Made by a program: the position numbers and the translations under genes. Source: an uncultured Alphaproteobacteria bacterium (GTDB lineage Bacteria; Pseudomonadota; Alphaproteobacteria; GCA-2731375). From it: a DNA stretch of 64,000 nucleotides. Below are positions 2,843-62,634 of the stretch, one piece after another. Under the pieces are notes generated by a model that did not search any database, was not told the DNA's origin, and saw only the letters and a list, made by a program, of their open reading frames with translations. The number at the start of each line of letters is the position of its first letter. Positions within the stretch are counted from its first letter, which is position 1. The DNA lies in assembly GCA_951812805.1 (NCBI GenBank), contig CATOSZ010000019.1, forward strand, positions 1 to 64,000. Reading direction: 5' to 3'.

Positions 2843-3443
2843 CCGCTATATGGAGCCAATCAGCCTGGGGGCTTTCATCGCAAAGGCGGGCAAATCAAAA
2901 CGGGTCCTGTACAGATTGTTCTGCAAAAGGGGTTTCGTAGCTGGGGCACAAGTCCGGGCCGATGGGGTGGATGAGCTGCCTCCGGCTGGTCCGGGCTCTC
3001 GCGATCGAAATCCATGAGGACTGGCTGGATGCCAACCGCTAGCTCAACATGATCCATCTCAAGGAGAGCAAAAGCGAACGCATCCAGAAAGCCGCCTGAC
3101 GGCGGCTCGGCATGCCTGGCGCTCCGAGCAATCGAAATCTCCGCGCCAGGCATGCCGGTGGCCCTCATCGGCAGCCATGACAAACTTGCAGAACAGTCTG
3201 GACACTACTTCAAAAGCTCATTGCCACTTCAAGAACCCCACCTGATCCCCACGTTCCGCCGCCGGCCCGGTTGTCCCGGTGGGCCCACAGGCCCCTCCCA
3301 CGCGGCTTCGCTCCGCGTAACGCAAAGCGCTACACGAAGCCGCGCGGGGCCCTCCCGTGGACTACCGGGACAACCTCCGTCGAAGCAAGGGGGGGGTCAA
3401 TTTTGCACGCCGATAGGGGGTCAGAATTAAATGCTGATTGACA
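2843..3443. other. Gene-poor 3' tail of IS21 copy A
   Basis: About 600 bases between the istB terminator and the IS21 end, also present in copies B and C. I see no intact gene. On the plus strand near 2970-3100 a broken reading frame with an in-frame stop gives LRLVRALAIEIHEDWLD and LNMIHLKESK, which resembles the C-terminus of IS256/mutator-type transposases (from memory, not searched). An inverted repeat GGCATGCCTGGCG / CGCCAGGCATGCC lies at about 3111-3155, and a longer palindrome at 3269-3375. Confidence 0.6.
3269..3375. repeat. 107-bp imperfect palindrome in the IS21 tail (copy A)
   Basis: The outer arms GGTTGTCCCGGT and ACCGGGACAACC pair perfectly. Further in, the arms pair again through CGCGGCTTCG / CGAAGCCGCG around a roughly 25-base centre. 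The same structure is at 19945-20051 and 52048-52154 in copies B and C. Confidence 0.85.
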
Positions 3444-5515
3444 CTGATGGTGACGTCGTTGGCGCCGGTAAGCGACGACGAGGCGTTGAGGTTCAGGCCC
3501 CCGGCGGTGATCAGTGAAATTGTGACATCGGTAGCGGCGTCGACATCGGCAAGGGCGCTCAGCGTCACGCTGTCGGTCATCGTATCGAAGACGCCGCCCG
3601 AGCTGATCGCGACCGCGCCGACCGTCAAGGCGCCGCCGTTGCCGTCGATCGTAAGTCCGCCGGTGCCGGTGGAAATCGCACCGTTCAACGCCACGGAGGT
3701 GAAGGCGTTGTCGATGGTGATACCGCCCGTTCCGGTGACGGTGAGCGCACCCAGCGTCATCGTCGCGCTCGGGACGGTCGTGCGGATCGTCAGGTTGGCG
3801 TCGCCCAGGCGGATCTCGTCCGTCACGTCGTTGAAGGTGATGGTGTTGACCGCTTCGAGCCTGACCGAGGCAGCGTCCGAGAGATCGAGGACGCCGTCCG
3901 TCAAATTCTCCAAGGTGATGGTGTTGTTGGCTTCGAGGACGATGGCGGCACTCGCGGCGAGGTTCTCGAGACCGACCTCGGAAATCGTGAAGGTTCCGGC
4001 GCCGTCCCCGGCCAGGATTTCATCGTCGGAAATTTCGCTGTCGCCGGCGATGGGACCGCCGTCCTGGATGACGATATCGTCCGGGTCGAGCAGCACCGTG
4101 CCGAGGGTGCCGTTCGGCGCGCTGGCGTCGACGTCGCCGCGAAACACCAGGGTCTGCTTGCCCGACACCTCGACGAAGCCACCATCGCCGCCGGCCGGCC
4201 CGCCGCGCGCCGAGATCTCACCCCGGTAGACGGTCGTCTCGTCGGCCCAGACGACGACGCGGCCGCCATCGCCTGCTTCGCTCGCATCGGCACGGATCGT
4301 CGCGCCCGCCTCGACGAGAGTGGTGGCCGCATTCGGCTCGGGCCCCAAGCCCTGGTAGTTGCCGCCGACCAGCACTTCGCCGCCGCCCGCCGTGCCCGAC
4401 GCGTCGATCGCGGTGGCGGCGCGCACGCGCACGTCGGCGCCCAGGATCTTGACCGTGCCGCCGGCCTCGCCCGCGTCGTTGCCGGTGGCGTCCACCGTGC
4501 CGGCGATGTTGACCGTGCCCGAGGGCGCGCCGAAGACGATCTCGCCGCCGACCTCGGCGACGGTGGTCGCGCGCACATGACCGGTCATGTTGATCAGGTT
4601 GTCGACGACGCCCTTCGCGGCCGCGGCCGAAATCTCGACGATGCCGCCGTCGGCCTCGATCACGCCCGAGTGCTCGACCAGGGCCTCAAGCGTCTCGCCG
4701 TCGACCCCCAGCACGCCCGCCAGCACATCGCCGTCGACGGCGATGGAAACGAGATCGTCGCCATAGAGATCGAGGGTGAATTTCGTGCCGGAGGCCAGCG
4801 CCACCCGGCCGAGCCGGGCGCGGATGCGGCCCTTGTTGACGACGCCCGGCGCCACGAAAGCGACCAGGCCGCCCTCCGCCGCCGTCACCTCGCCCTCGTT
4901 GACGATGATGGCGTCGGCCTCGCCGGGGCGGTCAAAGATCATCCGCCCGGCCATGAAGTTTTCGTTCGAAATGTCGCTCGTCGTCGCGGTCAGCGCGCCA
5001 ACGTCGATGCGCGCGCCCTTGCCGATGGTGATGCCCGAGGGGTTGATCAGCGTCACCCGGCCGTTGGCGAGCAGGTCGCCCAGGATCTCGCTGCCGCCAC
5101 CGCCGATCACCCGGTTCAGCAGTTCCGACAGGTCGGAAGGCTGGTGGATGGTAACCCGCTCACCGGCGTCGATATTGAAGCTCTGCCATTCGATGACGGC
5201 ACGCTCGCTCGCCTGGTTGATGCGCAGGTCCTTGGCCGAGGGTGCGGAAATTGTGACGTCGCCGGCCACCACCTGGCCGTTCTGCGGCAGGGCCCGGGCT
5301 TCGTCTGCGTGGAAGGTGGCGGCGCTCAGAACCAGCAGCGCGGAAATCGCCGTCGCCGGCGCCAGCGCCGTGCCGGCCAGGGCGGCGCGCCGGAAAGCCC
5401 GGTCGGTGAAGCTGGCCCGAAGGCCTCGGTTATCGTCCAGGGAAGGTCGCACTGCTACCTCGCGTCGGCGAATGTTTCGCCCGCGCCGTGCCGTCCTCCC
5501 CTGACGCCCCCCCAT
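3444..5515 (-). pseudogene. TpsA-type exoprotein (filamentous haemagglutinin family), 3' end lost to IS21
   Basis: Secreted protein of a two-partner secretion system. An N-terminal extended, arginine-rich leader and hydrophobic signal (ALAPATAISALLVLSAATF, cleavage probably after ADEARA) is followed by the TPS/haemagglutination-activity domain with LLANGRVTLINPSGITIG, the NPNG-like motif that TpsB recognises. Beta-helix-type repeats rich in V, T, G and N follow. About 690 native residues remain; the frame then runs 27 codons into IS21 and stops, so the C-terminal effector or adhesin part is missing. The start is uncertain: ATG 5515 is used, ATG 5536 and a GTG near 5455 are possible. It follows tpsB by about 95 bases in the same operon. 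Confidence 0.88.
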
Positions 5516-8738: not shown

Positions 8739-8817
8739 CAGTCTTCCCCTTGCACGATCACCCTGAGCTTGCCCCGATTTCGTGGACATCCGATCCTTTG
8801 GGAAGGAGGAGCCCACG

Positions 8818-9132
8818 ATGTCCCGAAAACGAGCACCGTATCCGCATGAGTTTCGCAGCCAGCTTGTCGATCTTGTCCGCGGCGGCCGGACGCCGGAGGA
8901 ACTGAGCCGCGAGTTCGAGCCGACGGCGCAATCGATCCGTAACTGGGTGGCCGCCGCCGATGTGGCGGAAGGCCGTCGCACCGAAGTCCTGACCGGCAAG
9001 GAACACGAGGAGCTGAAGCGGCTTCGTCGTGAGAACAAGCGGCTCAGACAAGAGCGCGAGATACTTGCAAAAGCCGCGGCTTGGTTCGCACGGGAGACCG
9101 ACGCGACCTCGGACGACTCTTCGCGTTCGTGA
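8818..9132 (+). CDS. IS3 OrfA (copy 2)
   Basis: 104 residues, same protein as at 1642-1956, with the same AAGGAGG ribosome-binding site 8 bases before the ATG and the same AAAAG slip site before the overlap with OrfB. Confidence 0.92.
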   Translation: MSRKRAPYPHEFRSQLVDLVRGGRTPEELSREFEPTAQSIRNWVAAADVAEGRRTEVLTGKEHEELKRLRRENKRLRQEREILAKAAAWFARETDATSDDSSRS

Positions 9133-9989
9133 GTGCGTACCAAGCCATGTACCCAATCGCCATGATGTGCCGACTGCTCGAGGTCTCCACCAGCGGCTGG
9201 TACGAGTGGCGTCGGCGGCCGTCGAGCCGCCGGGAGATCGACGATGGGATCCTGACGGCGCGGATCACCGAGATCCACGCAGCCTCCGACGGCACCTACG
9301 GCGCGCCGCGGATCCATGCCGAGCTGCGTGACGAGGGCGTGGCCGTCGCCCGCAAGCGGGTGGCCCGATTGATGCGCGTGGCCGGTCTGTCGGGCGTCAG
9401 TCGGCGCCGGCGGCCCAAGACGACGGTGCGAAGTGAGGGCGTGCGCCCAGCACCGGACCTGGTCGATCGGGACTTCCGTGCCGAGGCGCCTGACGAACTC
9501 TGGGTCGCGGACATCACTTATGTCCCGACCGCGATGGGCTTCCTGTACCTGGCGATCGTCCTGGACGCCTTCAGCCGCCGCGTCGTCGGTTGGGCGATGG
9601 AGACGCACCTCGCCACCGCACTCGTCTTGCAGGCCCTCGATATGGCGGTCACGCGACGGCGGCCGAAAGGAAGGCCGATCCATCACTCCGACCAGGGTTC
9701 GCAGTACACCTCGATCGACTTCGGCACCCGTTGCCGCAAGTTCGGCGTCCGGCCCTCCATGGGCTCGGTCGGCGACTGCTACGACAACGCCATGGCCGAG
9801 AGCTTCTTCGCCACCCTCGAATGCGAGCTGATCGACCGGCGGCGGCTCGAAAACCCCGACCATGCGCGGCGCGAACTCTTCCAGTTCATCGAAGGCTGGT
9901 ACAATCCCCGACGCCGGCATTCATCCATAGGATACATGTCGCCGATCAACTACGAGAGGAGCACAGCCCCCCGTCGCACAAATCTTTGA
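9081..9989 (+). CDS. IS3 OrfB transposase (copy 2)
   Basis: Same DDE transposase as at 1905-2813 with all three catalytic residues intact. Likely made as an OrfAB fusion by -1 frameshifting. Confidence 0.94.
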   Translation: MVRTGDRRDLGRLFAFVSAYQAMYPIAMMCRLLEVSTSGWYEWRRRPSSRREIDDGILTARITEIHAASDGTYGAPRIHAELRDEGVAVARKRVARLMRVAGLSGVSRRRRPKTTVRSEGVRPAPDLVDRDFRAEAPDELWVADITYVPTAMGFLYLAIVLDAFSRRVVGWAMETHLATALVLQALDMAVTRRRPKGRPIHHSDQGSQYTSIDFGTRCRKFGVRPSMGSVGDCYDNAMAESFFATLECELIDRRRLENPDHARRELFQFIEGWYNPRRRHSSIGYMSPINYERSTAPRRTNL

Positions 9990-10015: not shown

Positions 10016-10900
10016 GACATAAATTTGCGTAGTGTATTGTCGGCAAGGGTGCCGGCGGACTTGGCACACAAAATTAGATCGCTGCCGTATGACGTCTCGG
10101 CGCCGACCGATGCACGGCCCTATTTCTTCAATCAGCTGTCGTTCGTCGAGGTTCCCTCCATCGTCGCAAGCATCTTCGGTGGTGCGAAGGATCCAGTGAT
10201 CGCGGGGAACCTCAAGGCGGCCAAGACGCTTTATCTGCTATTAATCGCGTCGATTCTCATGGTCGTTCTTATCGTTTTGCTACCCGCTTGGAGTTCGAAG
10301 CGGCAGGTGGCGAGGGGCTTGGTGATTGGTGGTACAGCATATTTTGTCCTCATTGGCGCTGGGTTCATGTTCGTCGAGATGAGTTTTCTTCAATTGTGGA
10401 GCGTGTATTTGGGGCACCCGATATACTCTCTTTCCGTCGTGCTGTTCTCTGTCATTGTTTGGGCGGGAATTGGCAGCTTCTTTTCGGAAGCGTTTATGAC
10501 GCGAGGTTCAATGATATTCGTTATCACTTTTGGAGCCCTGTCTCTGTATTTGTTTTCCGTTCCTTACTGGATTTCAGATATTCTAACCACGTATTCGGGA
10601 GTTTCACTGTTTTGGCGCGCCTTAATTTGTACCCTGGTGATAGCGCCCGCCGGCAACATAATGGGATTGGCCTTGCCGACAGGAATGTCGCTGGTTCAAT
10701 TAGGGGATGTCAGGCCTACTCCATGGTTCTGGGGCATCAATGGGGCTGCCGGTGTCGCTGCGGCAACACTGTCAATCGCCATGGGGCTTTCCTTCGATAT
10801 TTATATGCCTCTGAGGATTGGGGCGGCTTGTTATATGTTGCTTCCTGTATTTGCAATCTACATTGTATTTTCCGTAAACCAGGCGACGTCCACGCCGTAA
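10016..10900 (+). pseudogene. C-terminal part of a spermidine-synthase-like membrane protein
   Basis: A frame open from the IS3 border to a TAA at 10898, about 294 residues, with no plausible own start. At least six hydrophobic segments are visible. APTDARPYFFNQLS and GAGFMFVEMSFLQ with GHPIYSLSVVLFSV are typical of the integral-membrane half of large spermidine-synthase-like proteins, whose N-terminal part is absent. The DNA is clearly more AT-rich than its neighbours, which suggests a different origin. It is fused in frame to IS3 sequence, but no expression is implied. Confidence 0.75.
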
Positions 10901-11541
10901 TCTCTTTGCGGACTTGACTATTAGTGGCGCTCCGGCACGGATTACAGAGGCCACCTGTGCCGCTTCATGATCGCGAATGGCCGTAGGTTTGCGCTTGGTA
11001 TCCTTAAACATGTTCGATGTCTGACGAAACCAGAGTGGTTTAGGAATGGCATCCGAGCAGCTGGAAGATGGAACAGAAAAAGGGGTCACCCATTAGGCAA
11101 TACCCTTCGGTCACAAAGATCTCCTCTCTCCGCCGGCGCATCGCCGTCGGTCGTTCTCGTTGCCGTTCGTCGTCCGCGTCGCCGCACTGCCGTACGTGTT
11201 CTCGATGCTTCGGTGTCGGCCTTTCGAGCGCGCACCAGTCACCCATCAGGATCAAGGCGTCGTCCCCGATGGCGATGCGCCGCTCGGGTCCGGGCCCTTG
11301 GCATCAAGCGATGCCCCAGAGAACGTCTCGTGCCATGCCGTCTCCAAGGGTTCGTTGCAGATCTCGTGGCTGCCGCGGATCGTCGCCGACCTCGGCTCCA
11401 TCCCCTCGCTGGCTGACGGCACGGGCGCGCCGCGTCCCGGAGGACGCATTTATGTGGCGGGCGGCGACCAATCAGGTCTGGTGGCTCGAAGCCAACCCCC
11501 CAAGGTCCGGACGACCGTCCGGCCTGCCGCCCACCCGCCGT
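10901..11541. other. Region without a supportable gene
   Basis: About 640 bases between the membrane-protein fragment and the IS110 gene. Several short overlapping frames exist on both strands, but none shows a recognisable domain. At 11072 an AAAAAGGGGTCACCC block resembles the head of the palindromes found further right. This is probably debris between mobile elements. Confidence 0.5.
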
Positions 11542-12556
11542 TCAATCGAAGCAACGCCCCGGATCGAACGGTGTCCCGTCCCGCATCAGGTAGAAGCAGG
11601 CCCTGGCCAGCTTGTGCGCCAGGGCCTTCTTCGCCACCACCGACTTGGTCTTCCGCTTCTTGCGCTCGTACCAGAGCTTGGCCTCGGGTTGGTAGCGGAC
11701 CGCCGTGTGGGCCGCCTCCATGAACGCCCAACCCAGGTGCTTGTTGCCCTCGCCCTTCTTGCGCCCGTTCGAAAGATGCGTCGTGGCCACCAGGCGGCAG
11801 TAGGACGCATAGTTGCCCGGCCCGGCAAAGCGGGAGACGTCGCCCGTCTCCAGGCGGATCGTCATGCCCAGGATGTCGCCGATGCCCCCCACCGTGAGCA
11901 GCGCCTCGAAGGCACCGTCCGCCACCAGGCGCGGGCGAACGATCCGCTCCAGCCGCTTGATCTCACCGTCCAAGGCCCGCATCACCGAGAGATTGGCGGC
12001 GATCCCCAGGCCGGCGTCGCCCGTACCGACCAGGGCCTCCAGCTCGCTCGCCTCCTCGCGCCGCGCCAGACGCTTCACCGTATTGCCGTCGACCGTCGTG
12101 CCGGTCGAGCGCGCAACTTGGTTCTGCACCGCCAGAATGTTCGCCGTGCGCTGGCGTACCAGCTGGCCGCGGCGGCGCAAAAGGTCCCGCGTGCCGCGAT
12201 CCGCCCGCGGATAGATATAGCCCTCCGCCAGCAGCCCCAGACACAACAGGTGGGCAAGCCAGTGTGCGTCGCTCTCATCGTCGCGGTGCTTCAGGCCCGA
12301 GTCCTGAACGTTTCGCCGCCGGGTTCGCCAGGTGAACCCGGTAACCCGCGTCCTCCAGCGCGTCCAACAGCCAGTAGCCGTTGTAGGTCGACTCGACCAC
12401 AACCCCTGCAAGCCCCTCGCGGAACGGCGCAAGCGCCGCCAGTACGAGCTCGGGCCGGTTGGCCAAGCGTTTCTTGAAGACAATCTTGTCCGTCTCGTCG
12501 ATCACAACGACGACGTTGTTCGTGGAATGCAGATCGATCCCGCAATAGTATGACAT
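11542..12556 (-). pseudogene. IS110-family transposase broken by a 1-base insertion
   Basis: The N-terminal RuvC-like DEDD domain starts MSYYCGIDLHST (first Asp) and has VVVESTYNG (Glu); the frame then shifts near 12314. In the other frame it continues as SGLKHRDDESDAHWLAHLL (remaining Asp residues) and the C-terminal Transposase_20 domain (LLTVGGIGDILG, FAGPGNYASYCRLV) to the stop at 11542. Reading GCGGCGAAACGTTCAG with one A fewer restores a continuous protein of about 337 residues. The ATG at 12556 has GAGGAG 8 bases upstream. IS110 elements lack long terminal repeats, so I do not set exact ends; the left end lies somewhere before 11542 and the 5' end near 12640. Confidence 0.88.
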
Positions 12557-12558
12557 CT

Positions 12559-12631
12559 TGGTCTCCTCTTCCTTCGTTGTTCAAAGTCGGTGTTGCAGCT
12601 ACAGCGAACAACAACTTGGTGGAGGAGACCA
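12559..12631 (-). promoter_or_regulatory. Stem-loop hiding the IS110 ribosome-binding site
   Basis: On the transcript strand TGGTCTCCTC (12631-12622) can pair with GAGGAGACCA (12568-12559), 2 bases before the ATG. The second arm contains the Shine-Dalgarno GAGGAG, so pairing would block translation. The 53-base loop is kept almost unchanged in the partial duplicate at 12937-13010. IS110 elements encode guide (bridge) RNAs in their non-coding end, so this stretch may also be part of one; that is inference. Confidence 0.6.
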
Positions 12632-12666
12632 GACTAGATGTTCATCAGGTCTTGTTTGGCGAAACG

Positions 12667-12730
12667 GGTCAGGTCTTGTTTGGTGAACTTGGACGCCGCT
12701 ACGCCGATATTCACCAAACAAGACCTGACC
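12667..12730. repeat. Perfect palindrome 1 (GGTCAGG family)
   Basis: Arms of 21 bp beginning GGTCAGGTCTTGTTTGG pair perfectly with 12710-12730 around a 22-base loop. It lies between the IS110 copy and its partial duplicate. Confidence 0.9.
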
Positions 12731-12745
12731 CTAGTAGGTTCGAGG

Positions 12746-13034
12746 AAGCCATTAGCCGTTGTAGGTCGACTCGACCACAATCCCTGCAAGCCCCTCACGG
12801 AACGGCGCAAGCGCCGCCAGTACGAGCTCAGGCCGATTAGCCAAGCGCTTCTTGAAGACAATCTTGTCCGTCTCGTCGATCACAACGACGACGTTCTTCG
12901 TGGAATGTAGGTCGATACCGCAATAGTATGACATCTTGGTCTCCTCTTCCTTCGTTGTTCAAAGTCGGTGTTGCAGCTACAGCGAACAGCGACACGGTGG
13001 AGGAGACCAGACTAGATGTTCATCAGGTCTTGTT
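12746..13034 (-). pseudogene. Partial tandem duplicate of the IS110 5' end
   Basis: Roughly 285 bases nearly the same as 12366-12655: the first 60 codons of the transposase (ATG at 12934, MSYYCGIDLHSTKNV...), the stem-loop in front of it and the CCAGACTAGATGTTCATC flank. The coding part runs out at 12752, where it meets unrelated sequence. Scattered substitutions (for example GTTGTTCG versus GTTCTTCG) show that it is not a recent exact duplication. Confidence 0.85.
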
Positions 13035-13083
13035 TGTTGAATTGCGATTAGGGAGATGGTCGAATTCAACAAACAAGACCTGA
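13023..13083. repeat. Perfect palindrome 2 (GGTCAGG family)
   Basis: Arms of 21 bp starting TCAGGTCTTGTTTGTTG pair perfectly around a 19-base loop. Extra outer bases continue as CCCC on the right only. Its left arm overlaps the end of the IS110 duplicate. Confidence 0.9.
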
Positions 13084-13164
13084 CCCCTTTTGCTTGTGCT
13101 CGAACGCCGTCACGCGGTTCGCCGGCGGAGGAGGGACCGTGGCGCCAGTGGCGCCGCGTAAGCC

Positions 13165-13260
13165 CTACGACGGTGATCGTCGCCAACCGGTCCTCGGAAT
13201 TGCAACCATAGCTGGTCGTGTTGCCGTTGCGGTTGATCAACCGGGCCCGGAATGACTTGG
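13165..13260 (-). pseudogene. Fragment of an RHS/YD-repeat protein
   Basis: About 30 codons on the minus strand reading LINRNGNTTSYGCNSEDRL then ATITV, which matches the YD-repeat consensus (NGNTT-Y-Y-----RL--I). No start, no continuation on either side and no other YD repeats nearby, so it is a relic. The identification rests on one repeat only. Confidence 0.4.
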
Positions 13261-13293
13261 ATTATGACCGTGCGAATCTTACCACTTTGAGTG

Positions 13294-13327
13294 CACTGTC
13301 ACCGTAAATCCACTGTCACCGTAAATC
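13294..13327 (+). repeat. Tandem 17-bp direct repeat
   Basis: CACTGTCACCGTAAATC occurs twice back to back, exactly at the border between the YD-repeat relic and the SDR fragment. It could be a junction scar or the end of a lost mobile element. Confidence 0.85.
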
Positions 13328-13755
13328 TCTTCCGCATCGCCGGGACCTACGGCCCCGGGCGCAACCAGCTGACGGCCCTGCGCGCGGGCCGCGCCAAGCG
13401 GATCGACAAGCCGGGCCAGGTGTTCTCCCGCATCCATGTCGAGGACCTGGTAGCGATTCTCCGCGCCGCCCTGGCGCATCCATCCCCCGGCCGGGTCTAC
13501 AACTGTGCCGACGAGGCACCGGCACCGCCGGGCGAGGTCGTCGCCGATGCCGCCGAACTCCTCGGCATGGCACCGCCGCCCGCGATCCCCTTCGCGACCG
13601 CCGAGCTGTCGGCGATGGCGCGCAGCTTCTATGCGGAAAGCAAACGCGTCTCCAGCGCTGAGACCCGCGCGACTCTGGGCCTGACGCTCCGCTACCCGAG
13701 CTACCGCGAAGGTCTGGCGGCCCTCGCCCGCGAGGAAGCCAAGGCTGAGAGGTGA
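13327..13755 (+). pseudogene. C-terminal fragment of an SDR-type NAD-dependent epimerase/dehydratase (YeeZ-like)
   Basis: 142 codons without an own start: FRIAGTYGPGRN, FSRIHVEDLV and GRVYNCADEAPA are characteristic of atypical short-chain dehydrogenases in which the sugar-nucleotide-epimerase fold is kept. The Rossmann glycine motif and the catalytic Tyr-Lys region lie in the missing N-terminal part. The reading frame enters from the 17-bp repeat and ends at a TGA at 13753. Confidence 0.75.
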
Positions 13756-13796
13756 CCGCCCGTTTCGCCCGGCTCGCCGATCGTCATCCTCCAAAA

Positions 13797-13877
13797 GGGG
13801 TCAGGACTTGAATGTTGAATTCGCGTGGATAAGGAGGCGGCATTTCTGCACGAATTCAACATTCAAGTCCTGACCCC
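13797..13877. repeat. Perfect palindrome 3 (GGTCAGG family), 27-bp arms
   Basis: Arms starting GGGGTCAGGACTTGAATG pair perfectly over 27 bp (13797-13823 with 13851-13877) around a 27-base loop. It separates the SDR fragment from the glycosyltransferase fragment. Directly after it CCAGTCCCGT occurs twice. Confidence 0.92.
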
Positions 13878-14101
13878 AGTCCCGTGACCCCAGTCCCGTA
13901 CGCCTCCGCCGGCGTCTTCGTCTTTCCCTCGCGGACCGATACCTTCGGCGTGGTGCTGCTCGAAGCCCTCGCCTTCGGGGGCCAGCGCCGGCCTTTCTCG
14001 TCGCCGGTCCCCGCGACGTCCCGGGCGATGTGCCGGTCGGTTGCCTCGACGAGCATCTGGCCGCGGCGGTCCGTCGCGACCTCGCGCCCTTCCGCCCGTG
14101 A
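13878..14101 (+). pseudogene. C-terminal fragment of a GT4 glycosyltransferase, frameshifted
   Basis: The first frame gives SAGVFVFPSRTDTFGVVLLE, the sugar-nucleotide-binding E-x7-E region of family 4 glycosyltransferases. After a shift near 13976-13990 the next frame gives FLVAGPRDVPGDVPVGCLDE and ends at TGA 14099. No N-terminal acceptor domain is present. A clear relic. Confidence 0.7.
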
Positions 14102-14209
14102 CGCCAAACCGTCGCAAAGGGGTCATCGGAGTGCAATTGGTTCCCTCTAGAAAGCTGGACAGGGTCCCCTATCGGGACTTTCGGGGCGAGAGAAGCGAGG
14201 GAGAGTTCC

Positions 14210-16105
14210 ATGGCCATCGATACGACACGCGACATGACATTCGACGAGTTCGACGAGCACGACAACCCGCCACCCGCGGTCACCGATTTCGACCGGCTGG
14301 CGGAAGGTGCGTTGAGCCGGCGACGCTTCCTCGCCGGCGGTGTGGGCTTCGGCGCGGCCGCCTTCGTGATGGGGACGACGGCGCTGACGCCGGCACCGAC
14401 GCAAGCGCAGAGTCGGCTGGGCTTCGAAGCGGTCTCCGCAAATGGGCTCGACACGGTGACGCTCCCCGATGGTTATCGCTGGCACATCGTCGCCCGCTGG
14501 GGCGACCCGCTCTGGTCCGACGCTCCGGAGTTCGACCAGGAAAGCCGCGGTACCGGCACGAGTCAGGAAACCGCCTTCGGCGACAATAACGACGGCATGT
14601 CGCTCTTCGCCCACCGGGGCCGCACCATCCTTGCCGCCAACAACGAGTATGTGAACCGCTCCATCATCTACGGCAACCGCGCTTCCAAACTGCCCGAGAC
14701 GGCCGACGACGTGCGTAAGGGCAAGGCCGGACACGGCGTCTCGGTCGTCGAAATCACGCGCCGCGACGGTCGCTGGGGGATCGTCCAGGACTCTCCCTAC
14801 AACCGGCGCATCACCGCGGACACGCCGATGATGATCACCGGGCCGGCACGCGGCCACGAGCTGATGAAGACGGTGGCGGATCCCGACGGCACCACCTGTC
14901 TCGGCACCTGGAACAACTGCGGCAACGGGCGCACGCCGTGGGGCACCTACCTCGCCTGCGAGGAGAACTTCAACGGCTACTTCTCCTCGAGCGATCCCAC
15001 TCTCGAACGGACGGCCGACCAGAAGCGCTACGGCGTTAAGCTGAAGGATTGGGGCTATGCCTGGGCGACGGCGGATGAACGCTTCGACATCGCCAAACAT
15101 CCGAACGAGCCGAACCGGGCCGGCTATATCGTCGAGATCGATCCGCTGGATCCGACCTCGATCCCGAAAAAGCGTACCGCCCTCGGCCGTTTCAAGCACG
15201 AGAACGCCGAAGTGGTGCTGGCCGCCGACGGCCGAGTGGTCGTCTACATGGGCGACGACGAACGCGGCGAATTCCTCTACCGCTTCGTCTCGCGCGACGC
15301 CTATGTGGCTGGCGGTGACAATGCGGACCTGCTCGAGACCGGCGCTCTCTATGTCGCCAAGTTCGCCGATGACGGTAGCGGCGAATGGGTCGAGCTGACG
15401 CCGGCCGCCACCGGCATGTCGAGCCTCGTGGAGATCTGCGTGCGCACCCGCCAGGCGGCCTCGGCGGTCGGTGCCACGACGATGGACCGGCCGGAATGGG
15501 TCGCGGCCAACCCGAACAAGGTGGAGGCTTACTGCTGCCTGACCAACAACAAGAACCGGGCGAAGAAGTCCAATGCCGGCGGCGACCCGACGCCTGTGAA
15601 CGGGCCCAACCCGCGCGAGGCCAACACGTACGGACAGATCGTGCGCTGGCGACCGTCCGCCGGTGATCACGGCGCGAACCGGTTTGCCTGGGACCTCTTC
15701 GTCGTCGCCGGAAACCCGACGGTGCACAGCGATGCGCGACGCGGTTCGCCCAACATCACGGCGGACAACATGTTCAACTCACCCGACGGGCTTGCCTTTG
15801 ATGCCGCCGGCATGATGTGGATACAGACCGACGGCAAGTACTCGAACGAGGGCGACTTTGTCGGGCAAGGCAACAACCAGATGCTGATCGCCGATCCCGA
15901 TACCGGCGAGATCCGTCGCTTCATGGTCGGTCCCCGCGAGTGTGAGATCACCGGTATCACTTTCAGCCCGGACCGCCGGACCGTGTTCGTCGGCATCCAG
16001 CACCCGGGTGAGAAGGGCGACAGCCACTTTCCCGACGGCGGCCAGACGGTGCCGCGCTCGGCCGTCATCGCCATCGAGCGCGAGGACGACAGTCTCGTCG
16101 CCTGA
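14210..16105 (+). CDS. phoX: PhoX-family alkaline phosphatase (DUF839), Tat-exported
   Basis: 631 residues. A twin-arginine signal (LSRRRFLAGG, residues 36-45) after an acidic N-terminal extension predicts export of the folded enzyme. The DUF839 domain covers most of the rest, with VTLPDGYRWHIVARWGDP, NNDGMSLF, TPWGTYLACEENFNGYF and FKHENAEVVLAADGRVVVY, all typical of PhoX phosphatases that use Ca and Fe to release phosphate from organic esters. GGGAGAG lies 6 bases before the ATG. No clear Pho box could be picked out in the short upstream region. The gene is flanked by relics but appears intact itself. Confidence 0.9.
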   Translation: MAIDTTRDMTFDEFDEHDNPPPAVTDFDRLAEGALSRRRFLAGGVGFGAAAFVMGTTALTPAPTQAQSRLGFEAVSANGLDTVTLPDGYRWHIVARWGDPLWSDAPEFDQESRGTGTSQETAFGDNNDGMSLFAHRGRTILAANNEYVNRSIIYGNRASKLPETADDVRKGKAGHGVSVVEITRRDGRWGIVQDSPYNRRITADTPMMITGPARGHELMKTVADPDGTTCLGTWNNCGNGRTPWGTYLACEENFNGYFSSSDPTLERTADQKRYGVKLKDWGYAWATADERFDIAKHPNEPNRAGYIVEIDPLDPTSIPKKRTALGRFKHENAEVVLAADGRVVVYMGDDERGEFLYRFVSRDAYVAGGDNADLLETGALYVAKFADDGSGEWVELTPAATGMSSLVEICVRTRQAASAVGATTMDRPEWVAANPNKVEAYCCLTNNKNRAKKSNAGGDPTPVNGPNPREANTYGQIVRWRPSAGDHGANRFAWDLFVVAGNPTVHSDARRGSPNITADNMFNSPDGLAFDAAGMMWIQTDGKYSNEGDFVGQGNNQMLIADPDTGEIRRFMVGPRECEITGITFSPDRRTVFVGIQHPGEKGDSHFPDGGQTVPRSAVIAIEREDDSLVA

Positions 16106-16445
16106 CTGCGCCGATCGGGGCGGGAGTAGAGTCGCCGTCAGATGTGGTGGCCGGGTTAGCCCACCACGTCGGCGGCCAGAATGGCGGCAAGCCGGCGTTC
16201 CAATTCAGATCTCCTCCGCCCATCAGAATAGCGGCGGAAGAAGCAAGAAGCTATGTGCTGGAAGAGTGCTCGGATGCCTGCCCTTGGCTACTTCGACTCT
16301 GTTAGCACCCCCTGATGGAGCGGCGACTCTTGAGGGCCCTTCGGACGAACGAGGGCGATTCCGGAAACCGGCCCCTTCGGTGTCGGGAATCGCGGGTAAA
16401 GTCCCTGTGGGCTGCGGAGGCCGGCCTATGGGAATCCATCGTCAC
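16106..16445. other. Intergenic region between convergent phoX and GST genes
   Basis: Contains a small stem-loop (GTGGTGG / CCACCAC, about 16144-16167) that may help to end phoX transcription. Otherwise I see no gene or repeat. Confidence 0.4.
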
Positions 16446-17135
16446 CTACCGCCGTTGATACTGCTCCCGCCCGAAGAGGTTCGACCAGCTCTCCGGCGTA
16501 AACGTCGCCTCCCTGTCTTCCAGCCGCGCCATATCGCTGGCGATGGCGGGACGGGCGGCGAGGTGGTGGAACCAGCGTTCGACGTTGGGGAAGTCGGCGA
16601 GTTCTTGGCCCTGGCGGCCGTGAAGGCGGCACCAGGGGAAGATCGCCATGTCGGCGATCGTGTAGGCACTGCCGGCGACGTATTCATGCGCCGCCAATTG
16701 CCGGTCGAGGACGCCGTAGAGCCGGCCGGCCTCCTTGGTATATCGGTTCATGGGATATTCGATGCGCTCCAGCGCGTCCTGGTTGAAATGGTGCGCCTGG
16801 CCCAGCATCGGGCCAAAGCCGCCCATCTGCCAGAACAGCCACTCCAGCGCCTCGATCCGCGTCCGTGCCTCGGTGGGAAGGAAGCGTCCGGTCTTTTCCG
16901 CCAGGTACAACAATATCATGCCGCTTTCGAAGATGCTGATCGGTTGGCCGTCGGGGCCGTCGGAATCGCGGATCGCCGGGATCTTGTTGTTGGGGCTGAT
17001 GGCGAGGAATTCGGGGCGGAACTGGTCACCCTGGAAGAGGTCGAGGAAATGCTCCCGGTAGTCGAGGCAGCATTCCTCCAGCATGATGTGGATCTTCTGC
17101 CCGTTGGGCGTCGCCGCGGTATAGAGGTCGATCAT
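16446..17135 (-). CDS. Glutathione S-transferase (YfcG/Ure2p-like)
   Basis: 229 residues. The thioredoxin-like N-terminal domain (1-82) begins [20 protein letters not shown], has the cis-proline segment NNKIPAI and the glutathione-gamma-glutamyl contact [13 protein letters not shown]. An all-helical C-terminal domain follows with YTIADMAIFPW. The TPNGQK stretch is typical of the Nu/Ure2p-like class, bacterial disulfide-bond reductases and GSH-dependent detoxifiers. A second member of the same class lies at 43336-44001. It is monocistronic as far as can be seen. Confidence 0.9.
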   Translation of the reverse strand: MIDLYTAATPNGQKIHIMLEECCLDYREHFLDLFQGDQFRPEFLAISPNNKIPAIRDSDGPDGQPISIFESGMILLYLAEKTGRFLPTEARTRIEALEWLFWQMGGFGPMLGQAHHFNQDALERIEYPMNRYTKEAGRLYGVLDRQLAAHEYVAGSAYTIADMAIFPWCRLHGRQGQELADFPNVERWFHHLAARPAIASDMARLEDREATFTPESWSNLFGREQYQRR

Positions 17136-17226
17136 TCCCAGAGGGCCCTTCCCAGGTGGTGTTTGCGTCGCCGATGCTGCTTTGCAGACAGAGCGACATC
17201 CTTGGGTTTTCGGTCACGAAGCTGTT

Positions 17227-17634
17227 TTATTGCGGGTACACTTCAAACGCTTTGATAGCATCAAGTTGGGGGCACCACGTTGGCCGATATTGATTTTGCA
17301 CCGTGCTGGTTATTTTGAAGGCCGACGGATCGTCGAAGCATCCGAGAGACACTAATCGCATCTCGGGGTACGCTTTCGGGTTCACCCAATGCACGTTCGA
17401 ATAGCATTTTGGACAAAGATATCTTCTCAGCCCCGGCCACTTAGCCATTTCGGGATCGAGTTCAAGAGCATCCGACATTCCCACAATGTCCGTTTCCCGA
17501 AATATTGCAACAGCGTTCCCTACGGAACCCGTCATTCGCTGACAGTAGTCACAGTGGCAAACAAAACACCGAAGTGGATTATTAGTCAATTCTATAGAAA
17601 CGATTTTGCATGCGCATTGTGCTCTGTACGACAT
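17227..17634 (-). CDS. GFA/CENP-V-fold zinc protein
   Basis: 135 residues. The zinc-binding cysteines are in place: QCACK near the start, CFVCHCDYC (residues about 23-31) and LCPKC (about 73-77), the pattern of the glutathione-dependent formaldehyde-activating enzyme superfamily. Most members have no proven formaldehyde role, so only the fold is assigned. The DNA is more AT-rich than the neighbours, hinting at separate acquisition. It is oriented like the adjacent GST gene, about 90 bases upstream of it. Confidence 0.85.
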   Translation of the reverse strand: MSYRAQCACKIVSIELTNNPLRCFVCHCDYCQRMTGSVGNAVAIFRETDIVGMSDALELDPEMAKWPGLRRYLCPKCYSNVHWVNPKAYPEMRLVSLGCFDDPSAFKITSTVQNQYRPTWCPQLDAIKAFEVYPQ

Positions 17635-17988
17635 TTCTTTCTCCAGCGTTAATCACGGATAAAGTAGCGCGTCAAACTAGGTAAAGCCAACGGTATCAAC
17701 TTGTCCGCCAGCACAATTTCCGGCGAGGTCCCGCGCAGAATCAAAACCAATGAACTTCTAGGAAGGGCTCGTAACAGACCTTCGGCGCAAGACGCTTGAT
17801 GTCTGAAGATGGCCATTGTGAAAAGGGGTCAGGACTTGAATGTTGAATTCGGGTCCGGGACCGCTTCGCCGGGGGCGACATTCGCCGGTGTCGAAGACGA
17901 CCAAGGCCTGGGAGGTCACGCGAAATCCACGCTTCCAGACCGGATCCTCGCAAGTCCATGACGGCGACGCGATGGCGGCGAGGGCGGG
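17635..17988. other. Intergenic stretch with one half of a GGTCAGG palindrome
   Basis: About 350 bases without a supported gene. At 17821-17852 the block AAAAGGGGTCAGGACTTG and the following bases repeat the left arm of palindrome 3, but no matching right arm follows, so it is a half element. The rest carries no recognised motif. Confidence 0.6.
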
Positions 17989-19356
17989 CTATGTCTTCCG
18001 TGAAGTCGCCTCGGCGATGGCGTCGACCGCGAGGAGGGCGGTGGTGAAGCTTTGTAGCAACCCGTTGCCGGAGAGGTAGCCGAGGGCGTCCGTGCCGCTG
18101 ATCGAGGCGGCGGTGCCGCCGGCGGCGAAGAGGTTCGGGATCGGTCGGGCCGCGTCGTCGAGGACGCGGGCGGCGGCGTCGATGCGGAGGCCGCCCTGGG
18201 TGTGGGCGAGGGCGCCGGTGACGACGGCGGCGTGGAACGGGGGGATCAGCGGCGGCGGGCTATCGCGCCGGCCCCAGGCGTCACGGCCGGCGCGGCGGTC
18301 GGCGCTGGTTCGCGCGATCTCCGCCGCCAGCGCCTCGGCGGGCAGGGCGAAGAGCGCCGCCAGCTCGGCCGGGTCCGCCGCGCTTTTCACCGCGCCCGCG
18401 GCGAGTGCGGCCCGGTAGGGCCCGAAGCCGAGCGCGGTTCGGTGCATCGCCGCGTCGACGATTTCGATCGCCCGACCGCCCGGCTGCGCCAGCACCGCCG
18501 CGGCGAATTGGGAGGAGCCGACGTCTTCGGCCCCGAAACGGCGGCCTTCGTCGTTCACCAGGATGGCGCCGAGCCCGGGCAGCGCGCCGGTCAGGTGCGT
18601 GCCGTAGCCAGGGTTGAGGTGGGCGTGCGCCTGGTGGGCGCCCATCCAGGCGAGCGCCGCGCCTGCGGTCCGGCCGGCGCGAATGCCGTCGCCCCGGTTG
18701 GTGGGGGAACCGGTATAGGCCGCCGCCGCCATGGCCGGGCAATGGCGCGACAGCATCGCAGGCGCGGCGCCGAAGCCACCGCAGGCGAGCAGGACGGCGC
18801 TGGCCTCGAATTCTTCGATGCCGGCCGGTGTTTCCGCCCGGACACCGACGACGCGGCCGTCGGCAATCAGAAGGTCCCGGAGCGCGATGCCGTCGCGGAG
18901 CGTGACGCTGCGCCGCTGGCCGACCGCGCGGCGCAGGCCGTCGATCAAGGTCGCGCCGGACTCGCTCTCCGGTCCGTGCATGCGATGGCGGCGGTGGCCG
19001 GTGTGGAGCGAACTCAGGTGCAGGTGCATGGCGATCCCGGCCGAGCCTTCGAGCAATGCGACGACGTCGGCTGCGCGGGTCGAGATTGCCGCCAGCACCG
19101 CGTCGTCGACCCGGCCGTCGTTGACCGCCCGGATGTCGGCCGCGAGGTCGGCCGGCCGGTCCTCGATGCCGTGGGCCCGTTGTTGTGTCGTGCCGGCCGC
19201 CGGCATCAGGGCGCTGGAGATCGCGGTGTTGGAGGGGAGGCTTCCGTCCCGCTCCAGCACCAGGGTACGGAGGCCGAGGTCGCCGGCCCGGAGTGCGGCC
19301 AGCAGCCCGGCGCCGCCGCCCCCGGCGATCAGCAGGTCGGGGCGTTTGGCTACCAT
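17989..19356 (-). CDS. FAD-dependent dehydrogenase (fumarate reductase/ketosteroid dehydrogenase flavoprotein family)
   Basis: 455 residues. The N-terminal dinucleotide-binding motif LLIAGGGGAGLLAAL (about 8-22) is followed by LVLERD; the C-terminal FAD contact NLFAAGGTAASISGTD with GYLSGNGLLQSF is typical of FAD_binding_2 proteins. Substrate is unknown; such enzymes dehydrogenate tricarballylate, ketosteroids or similar acids. Its ATG lies 3 bases after the stop of the GMC oxidoreductase fragment, so the two formed one operon before IS21 B removed the start of the upstream gene. Confidence 0.88.
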   Translation of the reverse strand: MVAKRPDLLIAGGGGAGLLAALRAGDLGLRTLVLERDGSLPSNTAISSALMPAAGTTQQRAHGIEDRPADLAADIRAVNDGRVDDAVLAAISTRAADVVALLEGSAGIAMHLHLSSLHTGHRRHRMHGPESESGATLIDGLRRAVGQRRSVTLRDGIALRDLLIADGRVVGVRAETPAGIEEFEASAVLLACGGFGAAPAMLSRHCPAMAAAAYTGSPTNRGDGIRAGRTAGAALAWMGAHQAHAHLNPGYGTHLTGALPGLGAILVNDEGRRFGAEDVGSSQFAAAVLAQPGGRAIEIVDAAMHRTALGFGPYRAALAAGAVKSAADPAELAALFALPAEALAAEIARTSADRRAGRDAWGRRDSPPPLIPPFHAAVVTGALAHTQGGLRIDAAARVLDDAARPIPNLFAAGGTAASISGTDALGYLSGNGLLQSFTTALLAVDAIAEATSRKT

Positions 19357-19875: not shown

Positions 19876-19944
19876 TGTCAATCAGCATTTAATTCTGACC
19901 CCCTATCGGCGTGCAAAATTGACCCCCCCCCTTGCTTCGACGGA

Positions 19945-49599: not shown

Positions 49600-52154
<2,555 letters not shown>

Positions 52155-61462: not shown

Positions 61463-61777
61463 ATGTCCCGAAAACGAGCACCGTATCCGCATGAGTTTCG
61501 CAGCCAGCTTGTCGATCTTGTCCGCGGCGGCCGGACGCCGGAGGAACTGAGCCGCGAGTTCGAGCCGACGGCGCAATCGATCCGTAACTGGGTGGCCGCC
61601 GCCGATGTGGCGGAAGGCCGTCGCACCGAAGTCCTGACCGGCAAGGAACACGAGGAGCTGAAGCGGCTTCGTCGTGAGAACAAGCGGCTCAGACAAGAGC
61701 GCGAGATACTTGCAAAAGCCGCGGCTTGGTTCGCACGGGAGACCGACGCGACCTCGGACGACTCTTCGCGTTCGTGA
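61463..61777 (+). CDS. IS3 OrfA (copy 3)
   Basis: 104 residues, same as at 1642-1956, with AAGGAGG before the ATG. Confidence 0.92.
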   Translation: MSRKRAPYPHEFRSQLVDLVRGGRTPEELSREFEPTAQSIRNWVAAADVAEGRRTEVLTGKEHEELKRLRRENKRLRQEREILAKAAAWFARETDATSDDSSRS

Positions 61778-62634
61778 GTGCGTACCAAGCCATGTACCCA
61801 ATCGCCATGATGTGCCGACTGCTCGAGGTCTCCACCAGCGGCTGGTACGAGTGGCGTCGGCGGCCGTCGAGCCGCCGGGAGATCGACGATGGGATCCTGA
61901 CGGCGCGGATCACCGAGATCCACGCAGCCTCCGACGGCACCTACGGCGCGCCGCGGATCCATGCCGAGCTGCGTGACGAGGGCGTGGCCGTCGCCCGCAA
62001 GCGGGTGGCCCGATTGATGCGCGTGGCCGGTCTGTCGGGCGTCAGTCGGCGCCGGCGGCCCAAGACGACGGTGCGAAGTGAGGGCGTGCGCCCAGCACCG
62101 GACCTGGTCGATCGGGACTTCCGTGCCGAGGCGCCTGACGAACTCTGGGTCGCGGACATCACTTATGTCCCGACCGCGATGGGCTTCCTGTACCTGGCGA
62201 TCGTCCTGGACGCCTTCAGCCGCCGCGTCGTCGGTTGGGCGATGGAGACGCACCTCGCCACCGCACTCGTCTTGCAGGCCCTCGATATGGCGGTCACGCG
62301 ACGGCGGCCGAAAGGAAGGCCGATCCATCACTCCGACCAGGGTTCGCAGTACACCTCGATCGACTTCGGCACCCGTTGCCGCAAGTTCGGCGTCCGGCCC
62401 TCCATGGGCTCGGTCGGCGACTGCTACGACAACGCCATGGCCGAGAGCTTCTTCGCCACCCTCGAATGCGAGCTGATCGACCGGCGGCGGCTCGAAAACC
62501 CCGACCATGCGCGGCGCGAACTCTTCCAGTTCATCGAAGGCTGGTACAATCCCCGACGCCGGCATTCATCCATAGGATACATGTCGCCGATCAACTACGA
62601 GAGGAGCACAGCCCCCCGTCGCACAAATCTTTGA
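61726..62634 (+). CDS. IS3 OrfB transposase (copy 3)
   Basis: Same DDE transposase as in copies 1 and 2; expected as an OrfAB frameshift product. Confidence 0.94.
   Translation: MVRTGDRRDLGRLFAFVSAYQAMYPIAMMCRLLEVSTSGWYEWRRRPSSRREIDDGILTARITEIHAASDGTYGAPRIHAELRDEGVAVARKRVARLMRVAGLSGVSRRRRPKTTVRSEGVRPAPDLVDRDFRAEAPDELWVADITYVPTAMGFLYLAIVLDAFSRRVVGWAMETHLATALVLQALDMAVTRRRPKGRPIHHSDQGSQYTSIDFGTRCRKFGVRPSMGSVGDCYDNAMAESFFATLECELIDRRRLENPDHARRELFQFIEGWYNPRRRHSSIGYMSPINYERSTAPRRTNL

Follow-up and report, generated by a model that had tools for sequence, protein, structure and literature searches.

The 64,000-nucleotide stretch of DNA from an uncultured alphaproteobacterium analysed here (the window) carries, between 12 and 18 kb, a set of palindromes that share a common head and lie among relics of IS110-family elements, which raises the question of what kind of element they are and which enzyme moves them. 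The initial annotation described three palindromes with perfect arms of 21, 21 and 27 bp, a half element at 17821-17852 and a related head near 11072. All of these are present, with the one amendment that the first arm pair measures 22 bp (12666-12687/12710-12731); like it, the other two pairs (21 bp, 13023-13043/13063-13083; 27 bp, 13797-13823/13851-13877) are 100% paired. Folded as single-stranded DNA, the three palindromes give z scores of -9.9, -10.2 and -11.7, and none of 200 shuffles folded equally well. Read in the light of the identity proposed below, the features of the region are as follows.

11077-11088, plus strand: outer piece of a TIR arm, AAAAAGGGGTCA (the related head), apparently severed by an IS110 relic from 12645-12663
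11542-12644, minus strand: IS110-family relic with a broken transposase (PF02371 and PF01548 in two frames; NF033542 below cutoff), its right end adjoining a TIR arm
12645-12663, plus strand: half of a TIR arm, TCAGGTCTTGTTTGGCGAA, immediately following the IS110 end
12666-12731, plus strand: probable miniature TIR element with perfect 22-bp arms, T-type, GTTTGGTGAA subfamily
12747-13022, minus strand: end of a second IS110 relic, with 94-95% identity to 12369-12644, stopping at the same TIR-arm nucleotide
13023-13087, plus strand: probable miniature TIR element, T-type, GTTTGTTGAATT, with the left GGGG missing at the IS110 junction
13797-13877, plus strand: probable miniature TIR element, A-type, with perfect 27-bp arms
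13878-13898, minus strand: ladder flanking the A-type element on its right, reading CGGGACT-GGGGTCA-CGGGACT on the minus strand and then the head at 13877 (GGGGTCAGG)
17825-17851, plus strand: half element (given earlier as 17821-17852), a lone A-type arm followed by GAATTCGGGT

The palindromes at 12666 and 13023 have a third arm type, GTTTGKTGAATT, and no intact transposase gene with exactly this arm type was found in the genome. A-type elements in the neighbourhood of the A-type transposase gene have at their left end the same GAATTCGGGT sequence that follows the lone arm of the half element. A search for the 13797 element in plasmids gave no match, and an Rfam search of window positions 10500-18500 returned no family. 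Directly downstream of the relic region is an intact PhoX-type alkaline phosphatase gene (14210-16105; PF05787, E 2e-177). Elsewhere in the window, an IS with two transposase-like open reading frames (116 and 302 aa) is located at 8782-9989, and regions near 1820-2739 and 61641-62560 resemble it; from identical matches that recur with corresponding spacing, it is judged to occur at least three times.

The hairpin family extends well beyond this region. The head GGGGTCAGGNCTTG has 99 exact copies in the 7.4-Mb genome, where the reversed pattern has none, and with one mismatch allowed there are 147 copies, versus 7 for the reversed control. At least 52 paired elements were recovered from 373 kb around heads, so that the possibility raised at the outset, that the window holds the only copies in the genome, gives way to dozens of copies. 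The elements fall into discrete sizes (46, 59, 63, 68, 81 and 121-126 bp), most being 46, 63, 68 or about 123 bp long, and the 46-bp copies are palindromes without a loop. The loops had been described as unrelated and free, which is true of the three window copies but not of the genome, where loop families and discrete sizes recur. Loop motifs such as TTCATTAG...TCTAGG are repeated within subfamilies, and the motif TTGGAYGCCGCTA is common to the 12666 copy and one at C3:65535. There are also mixed elements: three hybrids combine one A-type and one T-type arm (C8:26138, C3:911215 and C8:288290), and the copy at C9:173738 combines GTTTGTTGAATT arms with the loop motif of the other T subfamily. 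The A-type 120-bp copies have inner sequence in common with the end of the A-type gene unit.

Because six other genomes of the same taxonomic family contain only 0-5 heads each, the head expansion is peculiar to this lineage, whose genus has no second genome; neither an empty site nor a transposition event was seen. Copies are mostly located outside genes and also avoid the spaces between divergent genes; by rough gene calls, 15 of 44 elements lie between convergent genes (baseline 41/212) and 1 of 44 between divergent genes (baseline 29/212). No direct target duplication of 6 nt or more was found at any of the 52 elements, and direct repeats of 4-5 nt flank four of them, versus 1.4 expected.

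A search for a Y1/RAYT transposase gene flanked by the same palindrome, proposed in the initial annotation, found two. Six Y1_Tnp genes are encoded in the genome, and two of these are located between inward-facing heads of matching type: the T-type gene unit at C4:244764/245671 (head GGGGTCAGGTCTTG) and the A-type gene unit at C3:779542/780452 (head GGGGTCAGGACTTG). Each unit is about 0.91 kb long, GGGGTCAG is present at both ends of both genes, and the stop codon of each gene falls within the right-hand repeat. The T-type and A-type transposases (285 and 286 aa) are both intact and 63% identical. Both exceed the NCBIfam cutoff for REP-associated tyrosine transposase (NF047646) and match the Y1 transposase domain PF01797 over cutoff, and H60-Y-H62 (HUH) and Y119 are invariant in six aligned sequences. 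The T-type tail matches HTH_23 above cutoff; the A-type protein has no HTH_23 match, yet aligns through the region. A PDB search by sequence found no relative, and a PHROGs search matched none. A protein scan gave 75 named relatives, many in beta- and gammaproteobacteria, and most full-length relatives have GGGTCAGGTC-type repeats on both sides. The four further Y1 genes (C3:75449, C3:259187, C3:1252778 and C8:51487) lack GGGGTCAG repeats and may serve other REP families of this genome.

The same heads bracket each gene, and the miniatures share those ends but lack the gene; each of the two REP-type transposase systems thus has its own head variant and miniatures. TIRtrons, whose transposases are called TIRYTs, are RAYT-like genes flanked by long terminal repeats with a recurring GGGGWSAS, and have moderately abundant repeat families (Di Nocera et al. 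2013, PMC3733652); 20 of 26 TIRYTs have been assigned to TnpA_Y1 subclass 2.1, with HTH-like tails, a subclass equated with RAYT group 1 (PMC6006769). The systems described here are assigned to this kind because GGGGTCAG fits GGGGWSAS. It is very probable that the palindromes belong to two related TIRYT systems as their non-autonomous (miniature) elements, and scarcely less so that they are both this and mobilised by the two TIRYTs. Linkage suggests that each head type is cognate to the enzyme gene that it brackets. The initial suggestion of a REP/RAYT or MITE-like family was thus right in kind, given two bracketed Y1 genes and dozens of copies, but these are not canonical GTAG REPs.

It had also been proposed that each change in one arm is matched by a complementary change in the other. 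The signal is real: in T/T elements, variable position 17 is matched in 25 of 38 pairs, versus an expectation of 15.0, and the two arms of one element are 94.6% identical, versus 89.2% for arms of different elements, a within-element figure that none of 5000 shuffles reached. It is, however, partial. No excess arm pairing was found in A/A elements (n=11), and strict compensatory evolution is rejected, as mismatched arms and A/T hybrids persist. Near-perfect arms, like the palindromic flanks described below, are best explained if one arm is copied from the other as the DNA replicates (template switching), or if elements are copied whole, and not by selection on RNA. It is known that template switching can both form hairpin stems and repair them (PMC8794818), and the chance that it is the cause of the arm covariation is put at about even.

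The position of the window hairpins at junctions between gene relics and IS110, noted at the outset, holds in that both relic ends adjoin TCAGGTCTTG, a TIR arm, at the same nucleotide (12644/12645 and 13022/13023), but it is uninformative about the way in which the hairpins originated. The pieces at 11077-11088 and 12645-12663 look like one arm split by the IS110 relic. Because these two pieces rebuild a single arm, and because the relic ends meet the TIR at the same nucleotide, it is most likely that the IS110 relics inserted into hairpins. IS110-family elements are known to insert into REPs (PMC1525189), and the relic ends here similarly adjoin a palindrome at one fixed nucleotide, twice; the hairpin, however, is a TIRYT repeat and not a GTAG REP, and there are only two relics. 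These may represent one insertion followed by a local duplication of about 378 bp, and a target specificity of this IS110 is therefore not proven. A search for an IS110 guide matching the hairpin found no match of 7 nt or more between 12540 and 12645, and nothing longer than the junction itself is shared within 11080-11560. Among 15 family genomes, no IS110 relatives were found at E<=1e-40 beyond the window copy, and all relatives in plasmids are below 60% identity.

The shared junction could be taken to mean that the arms are part of the IS110 system itself, as its terminal repeats or its targets. This is extremely improbable. The genome has just two copies of the IS110 end versus 99 heads, numbers that refute IS110 as the source of the hairpin family; the heads bracket Y1 transposases instead, and insertion of IS110 elements into REPs is already known. 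An unlikely but less remote alternative is that the hairpins are kept for a host function, as terminators or mRNA 3'-end stabilisers (AAAAGGGGTC...GACCCCTTTT), with the covariation reflecting that selection and mobility being secondary. The strong folds, the T-runs after many stems and the placement bias towards convergent and away from divergent genes would all fit such a role. However, the ends of the copies are transposase TIRs, imperfectly paired arms and hybrid elements have survived, excess pairing is absent from A/A elements, and the Rfam search of 10500-18500 gave no match; a position downstream of genes is equally expected if harmful insertions are purged.

A further property of the family, apparently undescribed although the TIRYT/TIRtron kind is already known, is found at the element ends. 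At many heads, a short stretch of flank and a prefix of the head, usually GGGGTC(A)(G), are tandemly duplicated. The resulting ladder has the layout outer flank - F - GGGGTCA - F - GGGGTCAGG..., F being a flank of 5-17 nt that differs from locus to locus. Exact tandem steps occur at 44 of 309 distinct heads, from loci not chosen for the ladder pattern, and at 0.43-0.6% of random positions. Among other hairpin bases the counts are 1/686, 0/192 and 0/103 (arms of at least 10, 12 and 14 bp), although few of these are as long as the TIR hairpins. The head break falls at 6, 7 or 8 nt in 28 of the 44 ladders, and 27 of the 44 junctions have no microhomology. The flank break precedes a pyrimidine-purine step in 20 of 23 cases (null 33%, P=1.5e-7), with 12 CA and 6 CG. 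In a second set, found by a spaced-head pattern and giving only partial replication, this was the case in 11 of 17 (P=0.009), and a preference for C alone was not replicated (7/17, P=0.24). The definition of a ladder was fixed after examples had been seen, and these statistics are thus partly exploratory. Ladders also occur at the ends of gene-bearing units of about 900 bp, whose repeats cannot fold into a tight hairpin. Across the phylum, the pattern GGGGTCA-N4-22-GGGGTCAGG was found in 33 of the 399 genomes examined, with a control count of 0, not all of these matches having been checked as true ladders. No description of such ladders was found in the open-access papers searched.

Another repeated sequence in the window, GGGGTCAATTTTGCACGCCGATAGGGGGTCAGAATTAAATGCTGATTGACA (3393-3450, 19880-19926 and 51980-52027), also begins with GGGGTCA heads. 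It looks like the terminus of another IS and not a TIRYT ladder, because all of its copies are identical. A relative is located near a Y1 gene at L036:1020-1088.

In nine of the 52 elements, the 6-10 bp beyond GGGG/CCCC are perfectly complementary (0.67 expected; maximum of 6 in 10,000 shuffles). These palindromic flanks include all three of three loopless copies, and the shared stretch begins with C in seven of the nine (P=0.008). At C12:19901 the same F that forms the palindromic flank is also laddered, suggesting that either end of an element may receive a copy of a flank. Insertion into pre-existing short palindromes is a possible alternative. Elsewhere, palindromic flanks occur in 2 of 85 elements, and a general TIRYT feature is rejected on that count.

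The ladders may be the footprint of TIRYT nicking, as far as can be inferred from sequence. In such a model, the TIRYT would recognise the TIR as a folded single strand, by analogy with TnpA-REP, and would nick 5-17 nt beyond the head, at a pyrimidine-purine step that is often CA. Rejoining would link the nicked end to a strand end lying 6-8 nt within the head, and one step of flank and head would be added each time. Nicking and rejoining of this kind would leave heritable flank+GGGGTC(A)(G) ladders, with the flank sometimes copied across the hairpin, and ends would grow without transposition. Single-strand cleavage by TnpA-REP takes place close to the hairpin, at CT or CA (PMC8266576). As the known cut at C|A and the ladder break before CA are offset by one base, the correspondence is suggestive only. 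The nick-and-rejoin mechanism is put forward tentatively, its likelihood falling somewhat short of even. It may instead be that slippage or template switching, as general faults of replication at strong hairpins, produced both the ladders and the perfect arms with no transposase involved, a reading that is quite possible though improbable on balance. Long TIR hairpins are strong polymerase blocks, template switching has precedent in making and mending stems (PMC8794818), and the palindromic flanks in nine of 52 elements resemble fold-back copying. Less easily accommodated are the lack of ladders at other hairpins of the same loci, few of which are equally long, and the ladders at gene-bearing units, where no tight hairpin is possible. 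Most junctions, moreover, are free of microhomology, and neither breakpoint varies freely.

Among REP-type transposases, TIRYTs form a large group whose cut sites and manner of repeat spread are not shown in the open-access literature searched. If the nicking model is true, the ladders record something that REP-type tyrosine transposases have not been described as doing in vivo, and mark the sites at which these enzymes cleave. Specific predictions follow from the presence of both sibling systems, hybrids and ladders in one genome: a dinucleotide cut, a rejoining point in the head, and homogenisation of arms by copying. Perfect, covarying hairpin arms do not in themselves imply selection for RNA structure, as template switching or transposase action can produce them.

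Among known systems, MITEs are similarly short and non-coding, with discrete size classes and TIRs common to a gene-bearing partner; here, however, the partner is a Y1 (HUH) enzyme and not a DDE enzyme, and no direct target duplication was found. The resemblance to REP, REPIN and RAYT systems lies in hairpin-forming dispersed extragenic repeats, in linkage to a related tyrosine transposase whose gene has the repeat on both sides (PMC2817692, PMC3116915), and in an intergenic placement like that reported for other REPs. REP stems, however, are short (PMC2817692, PMC3116915), whereas the TIR arms here are long and perfect (20-27 bp) and have no GTAG/GTGG foot: GT[AG]G at the stem foot is absent from the flanks of 119 own heads, where only positions -3 to -1 are A/T-rich. 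The closest likeness in these comparisons is to TIRtrons, in which a Y1 gene with an HTH-like tail, as the T-type has here, lies between long GGGGWSAS TIRs, and TIR repeats are dispersed as single, dimeric or grouped copies. This genome differs from them in its ladders and palindromic flanks, for which the open-access literature searched gave no description, in its approximately 50 miniature dimers, and in combining a pair of sibling systems, each with its own head variant, with A/T hybrid elements in one genome.
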